Positions 36,170 to 40,902 of a DNA stretch of 40,902 bases are shown piece after piece; positions within the stretch are counted from its first letter, which is position 1; each line of letters begins with the position of its first letter. Below the pieces are notes generated by a model. That model saw only the letters and a program-made list of their open reading frames with translations. It was not told the origin of the DNA and searched no databases. Origin of the DNA: Aphanocapsa sp. GSE-SYN-MK-11-07L (GTDB lineage Bacteria; Cyanobacteriota; Cyanobacteriia; Thermosynechococcales; Thermosynechococcaceae); NCBI GenBank assembly GCA_019359715.1, contig JAHHGS010000108.1:1-40902 (forward strand), given 5' to 3'. The position numbers and the translations under genes were made by a program.

Positions 36170-37210
36170 TTAATTCCTGCCAGTAAAAAGCTGCTTCATT
36201 TCTAGAGCCAGAAATCGATCGACGGCTTGATACATCCAATACATTGACAGCTTCGGGTCTGGGCTGGTTTTTTGGAAACCCAGCTTTAGCCCTAGCTCTT
36301 CGTAATTGGGGTGAATCACTAAAGTGTACATGTCACATAAATTCGGAAAGTCCTGGCTGATTTGAGTCAGAATTTGCTGGGAATCTTCTAAAAAAGAGAC
36401 TTGAGCGATTGTTTGGTAAGGGGCTTCAATCATCCAACTGCGGACAAAAACGGCTCGGCATTGGGCATCACCAGGTAGGGCGATCGCAAACGGGTCAACT
36501 TCACCGACCGCGCTCAGGTGCAAGCCCTTGCTCGGTGGGCTAAAGAATTTAATCTCCGACTCGCGCTGGACAGGATAGAGGGCATAGAATCCAACCGGAT
36601 TCTGGTTGTCGCAGCGGCGCAGCACCCGCATCCCCGTCGCATATTGGCTGGCCCAATCCCGCAGAATGTTGGCAATCCGGTAAGGCAGAGCATCGGTATT
36701 TCGGTTTAACCAGTTGTAGTTGCTGGCCAAAAGATTGGCGATCGGGATCGCATCAGAGCGGGGATCAAAGGGCTGAGGCTGCACTTGGGCGATCGCAATT
36801 TCATCATTGATCCTGCCTAAAAGCTCCGGTATGGGCTGAATTTCGATCTGGGTGCAGTTGCCATCAAACTGCTTTTTAATCAGTCCCAGCGCCGCCAGCT
36901 TATCGAGCATCATCCCAGAGGCCCGATCGCTGCCGTGATCGCGATCGGCGTAAAACAGTTCGGCCGCTTCTCGACAGCTACAGGCAACCGAGCCTAGCGG
37001 CAAGGTTAACTCGGTCAAGGGTGGGATTAAAGCTAATTTTTGGCTCTGATTTTGTTTCAGCAGCAAATAGAGCCAGAGTCTAACGAAGCATTCCGCCCGC
37101 CGTCGCGTCATACCCACCCGTTTCAGGAGCAGCGAAACGTACTGCTGCTGCTGCGCTTGAGCAAACCATTGTTCGAGGTAGTCGGGTTGGATCATTTTGA
37201 TGGGGTTCAA
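36170..37210 (-). CDS. Unrecognised protein, winged-helix-like N-terminus and GNAT-like C-terminus
   Basis: I do not recognise this 346-residue protein. Residues 30-130 look like a helical, winged-helix-type region (MTRRRAECFVRLWLYLLLKQ, then SDRASGMMLDKLAALGLIKK and a beta wing QFDGNCTQIEIQP). The C-terminal 130 residues end in a pattern reminiscent of N-acetyltransferases (TLVIHPNYEELGLKLGFQKT). There are no membrane helices or signal peptide. It stands alone on the minus strand between the sugar transferase and the lipid operon. A regulator that senses or modifies a small molecule is one possibility, but this is inference from the fold pattern only. Confidence 0.6.
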   Translation of the reverse strand: MNPIKMIQPDYLEQWFAQAQQQQYVSLLLKRVGMTRRRAECFVRLWLYLLLKQNQSQKLALIPPLTELTLPLGSVACSCREAAELFYADRDHGSDRASGMMLDKLAALGLIKKQFDGNCTQIEIQPIPELLGRINDEIAIAQVQPQPFDPRSDAIPIANLLASNYNWLNRNTDALPYRIANILRDWASQYATGMRVLRRCDNQNPVGFYALYPVQRESEIKFFSPPSKGLHLSAVGEVDPFAIALPGDAQCRAVFVRSWMIEAPYQTIAQVSFLEDSQQILTQISQDFPNLCDMYTLVIHPNYEELGLKLGFQKTSPDPKLSMYWMYQAVDRFLALEMKQLFTGRN

Positions 37211-37425
37211 ACCAAGCTCACTCAGATGAACTGAAAAGTTATCTATAGCCAGTATTCCCTGGCTAGGGCTGACTATAGCAGGTTTAGTTCAAAAACTTCG
37301 CTCTACTTCGATTGCCTTCGATCAACTTCTTGCTGCCTCGATCTGCTTTGGTCTAGCCGGGGCGGCTCATTTTCATTGCATAAACTCGGCTGGCAGGATA
37401 GCACTATCAATTCTGCGAGGTGTTT

Positions 37426-38040
37426 ATGCCCAGCCTGTATCAGTGCAAACCCGCATTTCAAACTTGCCTCCGGCCGGTTGTCAATCAACTGGCTGCCTGG
37501 AAAATCATCCCCAATCAAGTCACCCTCACCGCCGTGCTGCTCTCGGCGGCAGGCGGTCTAGCGATCGCCTGCTTCCCCCAAGCCCAGTGGCCGCTGGTTT
37601 GTTTACCCAGCATCTTGCTGGCCAGAATGGGGCTGAACGCCATCGACGGTATGCTCGCCCGTGAGCACAACCTAAAGAGCAATCTGGGCTGCGTGCTGAA
37701 CGAACTAGGAGATGTCGTTTCTGATGCCGCCCTTTATCTGCCGTTTAGTTTGCTGCCCGGCATCACCGCCGACTGGGTCGTGCTGGTAGTTGTGCTGGCG
37801 ATAATCACCGAAATGATGGGGGTTCTGGGGTTGGCGATCGCTCAACAAAGAGCCTACGACGGGCCAATTGGTAAAAGCGATCGAGCGCTAGTGTTTGGGG
37901 CGATTGCTTTAGTTTTAGGGCTAGGAGTCAACCCGGCTGGCTGGCTAAATCCAGTTTGGGCGATCGTAGTCGTGCTGCAAGTTTGGACAATCCTGAATCG
38001 GGTGCGAGTCAGCTTGCAGGAGGTGCAACCATGCAAATAG
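37426..38040 (+). CDS. CDP-alcohol phosphatidyltransferase family protein, YnbA-like
   Basis: From ATG 37426 (GAGG 5 nt upstream; an in-frame GTG at 37420 is less likely) it is 204 residues with about six membrane helices. The family motif is present in altered form: N71-AI-DG-ML-AR-x8-G88-CVL-N92-ELG-D96-VVSD100. The canonical D-x2-DG-x2-AR-x8-G-x3-D-x3-D has Asp where N71 and N92 stand. It should transfer a phosphoalcohol or phosphatidyl group from a CDP-lipid. The next gene, a CDP-lipid synthase, overlaps it by 10 nt. As I recall, E. coli YnbA has the same context and a similar motif. The product lipid is unknown. Confidence 0.85.
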   Translation: MPSLYQCKPAFQTCLRPVVNQLAAWKIIPNQVTLTAVLLSAAGGLAIACFPQAQWPLVCLPSILLARMGLNAIDGMLAREHNLKSNLGCVLNELGDVVSDAALYLPFSLLPGITADWVVLVVVLAIITEMMGVLGLAIAQQRAYDGPIGKSDRALVFGAIALVLGLGVNPAGWLNPVWAIVVVLQVWTILNRVRVSLQEVQPCK

Positions 38041-38987
38041 TCTTACCTCCCATCCCTGTGATGATTGCCCTGAGCGGAATTTATGGACTGTTGCTGATTG
38101 GGACTGGGATGATCTGCGGTCTGGTCTACACAAAGCCAGAGACAGACTACACCGAACTCAAAGACCGGATCAAATCCTGGTGGGTGATCGTGACGGTGTT
38201 CACCCTGACGCTAATTTTAAATTGCACCGCTGCCATTGTCCTATTTGGTTTGCTAAGTTTTTTAGCCCTCAAAGAATATCTTTCCCTGATTCCAACTCGT
38301 CAGGCCGATCGGCGAGTCCTGCTCTGGGCTTACCTGGCGATCGCCCTCCAGTATGCCTGGATTTTGATTGGCTGGTACGGCATGTTTCTAATTTTCATCC
38401 CAATTTATGTCTTCCTGTTCTTGCCAATGCGAATGGTGCTGATTGGCGAAACTCAGGGCTTTTTGCGGGCGATCGGCACCCTGCACTGGGGGCTAATGCT
38501 GACGGTGTACAACCTGAGTCATTTGCCCTATCTGCTAATGCTGCCGTTGGCGGGAAACCCGATTGCCGGTGGATCCGGCTTACTGGTCTACCTGGTCTTT
38601 CTAACCGAAATCAACGATATTGCCCAGTACATGACCGGCAAACTGCTGGGGCGACACAAGGTTGTCCCTACGATTAGCCCTGGCAAAACCCTAGAAGGTT
38701 TAGGTGGTGGGATTGTGGTCACAACCCTGCTAGCGATCGCCCTTGCCCCTTGGTTGACTCCGTTTAGTCTGATCCACTCAATTTGTCTGGGTTTACTGTT
38801 GAGTTTGACCGGGTTTATCGGCGATGTGACCATTTCAGCCCTAAAGCGAGACTTGGGCATCAAAGACAGTGGCAATCTAATTCCCGGTCACGGCGGCATT
38901 CTGGATCGAATTGATAGCTTGACCTACACGGCCCCACTGTTTTTCCACTTCACGGTTTACTTCTACTACCAGGGGCAATTGCTGTGA
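38031..38987 (+). CDS. CdsA-like phosphatidate cytidylyltransferase, YnbB-like
   Basis: From ATG 38031 (AGGAGGT at 38018-38024) the product is 318 residues with about eight membrane helices. The CDP-diacylglycerol synthase signature is intact at the C-terminus (SALKRDLGIKDSGNLIPGHG then GILDRIDS). It would make CDP-diacylglycerol or a similar activated lipid from CTP and phosphatidate at the inner membrane. It overlaps the CDP-alcohol transferase by 10 nt and the acyltransferase by 4 nt. The dedicated pairing suggests it supplies this pathway rather than acting as the main cdsA of the cell. Confidence 0.92.
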   Translation: MQIVLPPIPVMIALSGIYGLLLIGTGMICGLVYTKPETDYTELKDRIKSWWVIVTVFTLTLILNCTAAIVLFGLLSFLALKEYLSLIPTRQADRRVLLWAYLAIALQYAWILIGWYGMFLIFIPIYVFLFLPMRMVLIGETQGFLRAIGTLHWGLMLTVYNLSHLPYLLMLPLAGNPIAGGSGLLVYLVFLTEINDIAQYMTGKLLGRHKVVPTISPGKTLEGLGGGIVVTTLLAIALAPWLTPFSLIHSICLGLLLSLTGFIGDVTISALKRDLGIKDSGNLIPGHGGILDRIDSLTYTAPLFFHFTVYFYYQGQLL

Positions 38988-39628
38988 AAAATCTGCTGCA
39001 ATGGCTGTTCTTTGGGCTGATTGTGCGGGTGGTGGTGCTGTTGGTGATTGGCTTGCGAATTCAGGGCAAGCAGCGTTTGCCAAAATCCGGGCCGGTGATG
39101 ATTGTCGCCAACCACAACAGCCATCTGGATACCTTGGTGCTGATGTCGCTGTTTCCGCTGCGGATGCTGAATCAGCTTCGCCCCGTAGCAGCAGAAGATT
39201 ATTTTCTAAATCAAAATCCCTGGCTAGCTTGGTTCGCCCTAGACATGATGAATATTATTCCGATCGCCCGTGAGGCAGGCTGCGATCGTCAGTTTCTCAA
39301 ACGCTGCGGTGCCGCCTTGCAAAATAACCAAATCCTCATCCTCTATCCAGAAGGCTCCAGAGGTGAACCAGAATGTCTGACCGAGTTCAAAACTGGGATT
39401 GCCCATTTAGCCAAGCATCACCCGCAAGTCCCAATCGTGCCGATTTTTCTACAGGGTCTAGGCAAAGCCTTACCCAAAGGTGAAGCCTTACTCGTTCCTT
39501 TCTTTTGCGATGTTCTAATCGGTGAACCGCTGTACTGGACGGGCAGTAAATCGGGGTTAATGCATTTGCTGACGGAGCGCTTCCAAGCTCTGGCCGCCAG
39601 CGGCAATTTCCCGATTTGGGAAGCGTGA
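38984..39628 (+). CDS. PlsC-like 1-acylglycerol-3-phosphate acyltransferase
   Basis: The 214-residue protein has an N-terminal membrane helix and the acyltransferase motifs NHNSHLD (HX4D, H44-D49) and YPEGSRGEPE (EGSRG 123-127). It starts with GTG at 38984, overlapping the previous stop by 4 nt (GTGA). It should put an acyl chain onto a lysophosphatidic-acid-like acceptor or onto the novel lipid product. With the cytidylyltransferase it could form a local route from lysophosphatidate to CDP-lipid. Acceptor and acyl donor are not shown. Confidence 0.9.
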   Translation: MKNLLQWLFFGLIVRVVVLLVIGLRIQGKQRLPKSGPVMIVANHNSHLDTLVLMSLFPLRMLNQLRPVAAEDYFLNQNPWLAWFALDMMNIIPIAREAGCDRQFLKRCGAALQNNQILILYPEGSRGEPECLTEFKTGIAHLAKHHPQVPIVPIFLQGLGKALPKGEALLVPFFCDVLIGEPLYWTGSKSGLMHLLTERFQALAASGNFPIWEA

Positions 39629-39667
39629 AAGAACTGATTTTGTTTGAACCGACCTGAAAACTTTTTA

Positions 39668-40537
39668 ATGATGGAAATTAACATGCTGCAAAAAACCTTG
39701 CCTACCTACGAAACCCTCATGCGTCCGCTGCCTCGTTTCAGTTTTAAAGCCTGGTATTACGGCTTAATGAACCTCTCGCTGCGCAGTCTGGGGCGACTCT
39801 CGCAAGGGGTGAAAATTGGCTACAAATATGGGTTTGATTCTGGGGTAATGCTGGAATATGTCTACCGCAATCAACCCAGTGGCATCACGCCGATCGGTAA
39901 ACTGATTGATTGGTTTTACCTCAATTCTCAAGGCTGGTGTGGAATTCGTAACCGAGCTGAGCTATTAAAAACAACCTTGCGGCAAACGCTGCAAACCCAC
40001 CAACAGCAAGGCATCACCTGCGTTTTACTGGACGTTGCCTGCGGCGGTGGGCGCTATGACCTGGAAGTATTAAAGCAATTTCCGGCTGAGTCTTTTCGGG
40101 CTACCCTCAGAGATTACAAACCAGAAAATGTTGCTAAAGCTCAGCAATTGAGCGATCGCCTGGGCGTGTTTGCCAACATTGAACAAGCCGATGCTTTTAG
40201 CGATGCCGATTTAGACCGAGTTCAACCTCGTCCCACCATTGTTTTGGTTTCGGGATTACATGAGATTTTGCCGAATGATGACTTAATTCGCCATCATTTT
40301 CAGCAGCTTTATCGGATCATGCCATCCCCAAGTACCCTGATTTTCACGATTCAGCCCTACCACCCCCAGCTAGAGCTAATTGCCCGCGTCTTGCCTTCCC
40401 ATACCGGGCAACCTTGGGTGATGCGCCTGCGCTCTTGGCCACTCATTCAGCAGTGGGCCACAGCCGCTGGGTTCAAAAACCTACGAGTGCAAATGGAACC
40501 CAACGGCATTTTTGGCGTGGTGACTGCTCAAAAATAG
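39668..40537 (+). CDS. SAM-dependent methyltransferase, YnbC C-terminal-like
   Basis: From ATG 39668 it is 289 residues. ATGs at 39671 and 39683 are alternatives, and a TTG at 39644 is less likely. The SAM-binding motif VLLDVACGGGRYD is at about 119-131. Before it is a conserved block, GYKYGFDSGVMLEYVYRNQP with GKLIDWFYLNSQGWCGIRNR. I associate this block with PF12147-type methyltransferases and with the C-terminal half of E. coli YnbC. It lies 39 nt after the acyltransferase as the last gene of the lipid operon. Methylation of the lipid head group is a reasonable inference. A hairpin follows the stop. Confidence 0.85.
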   Translation: MMEINMLQKTLPTYETLMRPLPRFSFKAWYYGLMNLSLRSLGRLSQGVKIGYKYGFDSGVMLEYVYRNQPSGITPIGKLIDWFYLNSQGWCGIRNRAELLKTTLRQTLQTHQQQGITCVLLDVACGGGRYDLEVLKQFPAESFRATLRDYKPENVAKAQQLSDRLGVFANIEQADAFSDADLDRVQPRPTIVLVSGLHEILPNDDLIRHHFQQLYRIMPSPSTLIFTIQPYHPQLELIARVLPSHTGQPWVMRLRSWPLIQQWATAAGFKNLRVQMEPNGIFGVVTAQK

Positions 40538-40902
40538 CAGCGGTGTAAATTTCTGTCTTCCAGCGTGAATCGGGTTTCACGCTGGAAGTTCAGGTTATAC
40601 AGAAAAATCGCGATCGCCCATTGAAGATGACTAAAAATAATTTATTGATTTTCAAAATCAGAACAGCCAAGAGCTTCAGTTTGCGTGTAACGTCCCGATA
40701 ACTCATTAATTTGCAATCAAGGTTTCTAGCCAAATCGAGCTTGCGGTATCTGAAAGCTGCAAATTAGCAGGCAACAGGGTTGTGTTGCAAAAAGAATGAA
40801 TTGGAATCAACTTGCATGAAGGAAGTCGGGATCAAACAGCAACTCCGAAGATTTGATGGATGAAAGAGATCTGTCCCAAGACATCCCCTTTTTCCACCCC
40901 TT
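40538..40902. other. Non-coding end of window
   Basis: Apart from the terminator hairpin at 40557-40588, I see no gene, repeat or known site in these 365 nt. A promoter for a gene beyond the window could lie here. Confidence 0.5.
40557..40588 (+). terminator. Terminator hairpin of the lipid operon
   Basis: A perfect 13-bp stem (CTTCCAGCGTGAA / TTCACGCTGGAAG) with a 6-nt loop lies 20 nt after the methyltransferase stop. No strong T run follows, so termination may be partial or the hairpin may protect the 3' end. Confidence 0.7.

Follow-up and report, generated by a model that had tools for sequence, protein, structure and literature searches.

A ynbA-ynbB-plsC-type operon with a tailoring methyltransferase in a cyanobacterium, a candidate pathway for a minor phospholipid

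Introduction

CDP-alcohol phosphotransferases carry the signature D1xxD2GxxAR...GxxxD3xxxD4, with four Asp residues and two bound metals (PMC6506517, PMC10156783). D1 and D3 are two of the four di-metal-site ligands in Mycobacterium tuberculosis PgsA1 (PMC6506517), and Ala at D3 abolishes the activity of CEPT1 (PMC10156783). A member of this family, YnbA, is encoded in the chromosomal ynbA-ynbB-ynbC-ynbD operon of Escherichia coli (b1408-b1411), which is present at ≥80% length coverage in 4242 of 5426 complete E. coli genomes. Literature searches on the ynb operon, on PF12147 and on genome mining for CDP-alcohol enzymes found no product, in agreement with the original prediction for the locus described here, which regarded the ynb product as undefined. 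E. coli YnbB fails to replace CdsA even when overproduced; its overproduction increases MPIase, and MPIase shows no significant change in a ynbB knockout (PMC6362211). Furthermore, ynbB is reported not to be necessary for ECA-PG (PMC8609368). In cyanobacteria, which had been credited with few phospholipids, phosphatidylglycerol (PG) is described as the only one (PMC5701814).

Results and discussion

Operon layout and genomic setting

The window analyzed here is the entire contig C108 (40,902 nucleotides) of Aphanocapsa sp. GSE-SYN-MK-11-07L, whose 5.1-Mb genome comprises 159 contigs and is 99.5% complete. The operon consists of four plus-strand genes. Gene 1 (37426..38040, with a possible alternative GTG start at 37420) encodes a YnbA-type CDP-alcohol phosphotransferase homologue (PF01066, CDP-OH_P_transf; 35.5 bits, E = 1.6e-8), and gene 2 (38031..38987) a YnbB-type CDP-diacylglycerol synthase paralogue (PF01148, CTP_transf_1; 222 bits, E = 1.6e-65). 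They are followed by a PlsC-type 1-acylglycerol-phosphate acyltransferase with a GTG start (gene 3, 38984..39628; PF01553, Acyltransferase; 79 bits, E = 2.7e-22) and a class I SAM methyltransferase (gene 4, 39668..40537; PF12147, Methyltransf_20; 272 bits, E = 7.3e-81). As originally described, genes 1 and 2 overlap by 10 nt, genes 2 and 3 overlap by 4 nt, and 39 nt separate genes 3 and 4. Both overlaps are found again in other cyanobacterial copies and thus do not reflect chance. The hairpin that had been placed at the end of the operon is also real, with a perfect 13-bp stem (about 40556..40588, plus strand) and a folding energy of -30.3 kcal/mol (z = -7.0) over region 40530-40610. It is not a classic intrinsic terminator, as there is no T-tract and no terminator call. 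The contig stops 365 bp 3' of the operon, so genes downstream are out of view.

A polysaccharide/exopolysaccharide cluster (14977-36114) lies directly upstream and contains dTDP-rhamnose genes, glycosyltransferases, a flippase, Wzc-like and Alg14-like genes and a sugar transferase. The divergent gene at 36170..37210 (minus strand) encodes a 346-aa protein with no Pfam match that is a frequent neighbor of the cassette in cyanobacteria, with the same divergent placement at Pseudanabaena and Oscillatoria loci. A role as a dedicated cassette regulator is unsupported, since most of the genomes that carry this protein (30 of 386 in the phylum) do not have the cassette.

A separate CdsA and a canonical PgsA are encoded elsewhere in the genome (contigs C98/C123), as are five more acyltransferase-family matches, and ordinary PG synthesis should therefore be independent of the operon. 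The housekeeping CdsA and PgsA belong to the same superfamilies as the cassette proteins, but fall in separate clades and have other active-site residues.

Relation to the E. coli ynb operons

Gene 1 shares 44% identity with YnbA of E. coli, and the gene-2 proteins of related cyanobacterial cassettes are 44-51% identical to YnbB. Gene 4 is the counterpart of the C-terminal half of YnbC, the N-terminal half of which is an alpha/beta hydrolase. The adjacent YnbA and YnbB orthologues and the PF12147 methyltransferase of ynbABC(D)-type operons are thus all present. The chromosomal E. coli operon also shares the A-B-...-C order and the same Asn substitutions (see below), but is without plsC. Conversely, the cyanobacterial cassette is without the hydrolase domain of YnbC and the PAP2/dual-specificity phosphatase YnbD. 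No YnbC-type hydrolase domain occurs in gene 4 and the best one elsewhere in the genome is 26% identical, whereas the sole match to YnbD in the genome is partial (22.6 bits), as far as the truncated contig allows.

The closest architecture is found on an E. coli IncK2/Z plasmid (NZ_CP027341), which carries ynbA-ynbB-plsC-ynbC with order and domains identical to the cassette, except that its methyltransferase is fused to the hydrolase. Given that this order matches the window, the operon on the E. coli chromosome would seem to be a plsC-less form. The likeness to ynbABC proposed in the original prediction therefore reflects true homology, and the link appears firmer than could be known from the window alone, although the best counterpart is ynbA-ynbB-plsC-ynbC and not the chromosomal ynbABC.

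Distribution and conservation

The identical four-gene order is found at at least 11 further cyanobacterial loci. The full cassette is present in several Pseudanabaena, an Acaryochloris MAG, Oscillatoria CS-180 and genomes G193, G237 and G286, and recurs in non-photosynthetic relatives of cyanobacteria. The three core genes ynbA, ynbB and plsC (A-B-P) occur with no adjacent methyltransferase in genome G318, Vibrio campbellii and Bacteroides finegoldii, and this minimal core is thus present in other cyanobacteria, Vibrio and Bacteroides; genomes G180 and G120 arrange the three as B-P-A. A-B-P or rearranged forms extend to Acidobacteria, Shinella, Burkholderia, Bacteroides, Vibrio, Fusobacterium and the non-photosynthetic relatives, with A, C, D, plsC and B in differing orders in the first three. 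This breadth beyond cyanobacteria is drawn from plasmid-collection records, E. coli records and one genome-contig scan. The spread is patchy, with strong YnbA matches in about 16 of the 386 genomes of the phylum. All four genes are under strong purifying selection (dN/dS of 0.06-0.16 for each among Pseudanabaena copies).

The survey across bacteria that the original prediction had called for supports conservation of the set as a unit. By these comparisons, the four linked genes appear to be a widespread conserved membrane-lipid module that is present in E. coli too. Because A-B-P occurs without the methyltransferase, PlsC, YnbB and YnbA represent the core, to which we infer that the methyltransferase is a tailoring addition.

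Several loci have unusual contexts. In Pseudanabaena, one cassette (L113) resides on plasmid ABRG53d, directly adjoining a nif cluster. In loci L078, L079, L080 and L084, YnbB and PlsC are accompanied by a tandem pair of Asn-type CDP-alcohol transferase homologues (a single one in L084), next to a protein of about 1170 residues, whose kind in L041 is an MFS/PlsC/AMP-ligase fusion. A diverged cluster in genome G308 (L039, 7104-13545) includes a CdsA-like protein, a Rieske oxygenase, PlsC and a CDP-alcohol transferase, together with a class V aminotransferase, PF12147, a hydrolase and an SDR.

An altered metal site in YnbA

Gene 1 has N71/D74/N92/D96 at the signature positions, compared with D/D/D/D in canonical enzymes. 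Among the 36 cassette-linked homologues examined, Asn occupies D3 without exception and D1 in 35 cases, the remaining protein having Ser at D1. All four Asp residues are kept in 14 of 14 canonical relatives, which comprise 12 other CDP-alcohol transferases of the phylum, the PgsA of this genome and E. coli PgsA. D2, D4, the DGxxA segment, G88 and the phosphate-site arginines are invariant or nearly so among the homologues. In the diverged L039 protein, D1 is Ser and D4 is Gly. YnbA-type transferases with a C-terminal flavodoxin fusion occur in non-photosynthetic relatives (L040, 7121-8206; L041, 9223-10311), as do more degenerate CDP-alcohol transferase-like proteins from which the entire signature is gone (L109, L111).

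The AlphaFold model of gene 1 (pLDDT 78) is closest to phosphatidylinositol-phosphate (PIP) synthases, with TM scores up to 0.69. Renibacterium PIPS (5d92) and M. tuberculosis PgsA1 (6h53) share its fold (TM 0.64-0.69) and phosphate-site arginines; the sulphate/phosphate site R152/R155/R195 of PgsA1 maps to K150/R153/R192 and is kept. Unlike these actinobacterial enzymes, gene 1 has Asn at D1 and D3 and is missing the inositol-phosphate residues R94, K135 and R137, which correspond to V97, G132 and L134. The R94 position is Val or Ile across the YnbA proper group, and changing R94 to Gln nearly abolishes PgsA1 activity. With the pocket residues lost and no inositol-1-phosphate synthase (PF01658) in the genome, phosphatidylinositol is rejected as a likely product.

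Gene 1 therefore belongs with CDP-alcohol phosphotransferases by PF01066 and by fold, but does not match the four-Asp signature (N71 and N92 at D1 and D3), and the lipid transfer assigned to it by the original prediction cannot be read from the family name. We regard it as a genuine relative with a conserved yet altered active site, for which the modeled fold makes a transferase function likely. It falls below the relevant NCBIfam cut-offs, with 24.4 bits against pgsA (TIGR00560, cut-off 109.1), 43.7 bits against PIP synthase (cut-off 170) and 67.8 bits against archaetidylinositol-phosphate synthase (cut-off 180).

These comparisons bear on the idea that the operon is a duplicate PlsC-CdsA-PgsA line that supplies auxiliary PG or a PG derivative under stress, with an incidental methyltransferase. 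PG is the known cyanobacterial phospholipid, and the family names of genes 1-3 correspond to the three reactions on the way from lyso-PA to PGP. This reading is nevertheless improbable, as gene 1 falls far below the pgsA cut-off and is nearer PIP and archaetidylinositol-phosphate synthases, D1 and D3 are lost here and kept in the cyanobacterium's own and E. coli PgsA, and CdsA is not complemented by YnbB (PMC6362211). A simple duplicate of the PG pathway is accordingly disfavored on the pgsA score and the D1/D3 loss, and ordinary PG, the outcome that would have contradicted the original prediction, is an unlikely product.

Alternatively, without two of its metal-binding carboxylates, gene 1 might have no transferase activity, as with Ala at D3 of CEPT1 (PMC10156783). 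YnbA would then be a partner of YnbB with a non-catalytic or repurposed fold, serving in lipid binding, as a scaffold, as a CDP-lipid hydrolase or as a flippase, and the operon would remodel or sense lipids. Both Asn residues replace PgsA1 di-metal ligands (PMC6506517), D4 is also missing from the L039 homologue, and the flavodoxin fusions are compatible with such a role. However, the near-invariance of the remaining signature and phosphate-site residues resembles that of an active site, and Asn is fixed, not drifting, under strong purifying selection. We consider a non-transferase YnbA rather unlikely.

YnbB and PlsC

The C-terminal CDS signature of gene 2 (S-x2-KR-x4-KD...PGHGG-x2-DR-x-D) is complete. 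Its clade is separate from the CdsA of this genome and that of E. coli, which group together at 0.976 support, and its active site has 'ND..Q' in place of 'AD.GA', while the Glu of GDxxES is replaced by a hydrophobic residue. Gene 3 has intact NHx4D and PEGSR motifs, as expected for PlsC, and matches Thermotoga PlsC (5kym).

The effect of YnbB overproduction on MPIase (PMC6362211) raises the possibility of a pyrophosphate-linked or glycosylated MPIase-type lipid, in which a sugar phosphate would be the acceptor and the methyltransferase would cap the sugar. The retained phosphate-binding residues of YnbA and the large polysaccharide cluster adjoining the operon would fit such a product. It is very unlikely all the same, given the ynbB knockout phenotype (PMC6362211), the dispensability of ynbB for ECA-PG (PMC8609368) and the location of the other cassette copies, mostly away from polysaccharide genes.

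The methyltransferase

The PF12147 match spans the full length of gene 4 (residues 25-309 of 309) and includes the SAM motif DVACGGGRY. Its model (pLDDT 88.5) has generic small-molecule O-/C-methyltransferases as fold neighbors, and for this reason we rejected naming a substrate by sequence or fold. Phospholipid N-methyltransferases (Pmt) and PC synthase (Pcs) would likewise yield methylated phospholipids, but gene 4 belongs to PF12147, and neither Pfam nor NCBIfam gives it a Pmt match.

PF12147 is fused to the alpha/beta hydrolase in YnbC, adjoins a hydrolase and an SDR in genome G308 (L039) and a patatin and an SDR in Moraxella, and lies beside ACP, KAS (ketosynthase), MaoC, FabG and hydrolase genes on a Kosakonia plasmid (L122, 1019-6744). 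This loose linkage, repeatedly with hydrolases and SDRs, suggests a possible role in a side branch. Its target could thus be an acyl product (a free or lipid-bound carboxylate or an acyl chain) rather than a head group, with A-B-P working independently; both the fatty-acid-type neighbors and the O-/C-methyltransferase fold are consistent with this. In the cyanobacterial cassette, however, the methyltransferase directly follows plsC and adjoins no hydrolase, and we hold acyl methylation to be possible but doubtful. As this alternative touches the last step only, the confidences placed in it and in the other readings need not sum to one. The lipid methylation foreseen by the original prediction would depend on an enzyme that is a variable add-on, missing from many A-B-P modules.

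A candidate phospholipid pathway

On balance, we lean slightly towards a dedicated pathway of the ynbA-ynbB-plsC type, with a tailoring methyltransferase, for a minor phospholipid that is not PG. All steps of the following scheme are inferred, including the order of the reactions, the acceptor and what is methylated. PlsC would acylate a lysophosphatidate-like lipid, the YnbB paralogue would activate the resulting phosphatidate-like lipid with CTP, and YnbA would swap CMP for a head group through its altered, Asn-substituted metal site. Methylation by the PF12147 enzyme may follow, either on the head group or elsewhere in the lipid, leaving a minor phospholipid other than PG as the end product. 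The lipid-pathway reading of the original prediction is retained for its lipid enzymes, ynbABC homology and conservation as a unit, and is revised as to the closest architecture, transfer by gene 1 and the role of the methyltransferase.

Loss of two supposedly essential metal-binding residues from the head-group enzyme probably points to a phospholipid not yet identified. More tentatively, YnbA proteins may be mechanistically distinct phosphatidyl transferases with an Asn metal site, which together with a co-specialized CDP-lipid synthase would make an undescribed phospholipid, methylated where PF12147 is present. Since cyanobacteria have one known phospholipid, any additional lipid should be conspicuous in mass spectra. 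Among the new leads, the unforeseen Asp-to-Asn pair is the most informative, and its conservation poses a sharp biochemical question about a motif regarded as superfamily-defining. The operon is present in most complete E. coli genomes, yet the literature searched names no product for it; if the tentative reading is true, an undescribed phospholipid would be common to E. coli, Vibrio, Bacteroides, Acidobacteria and cyanobacteria.
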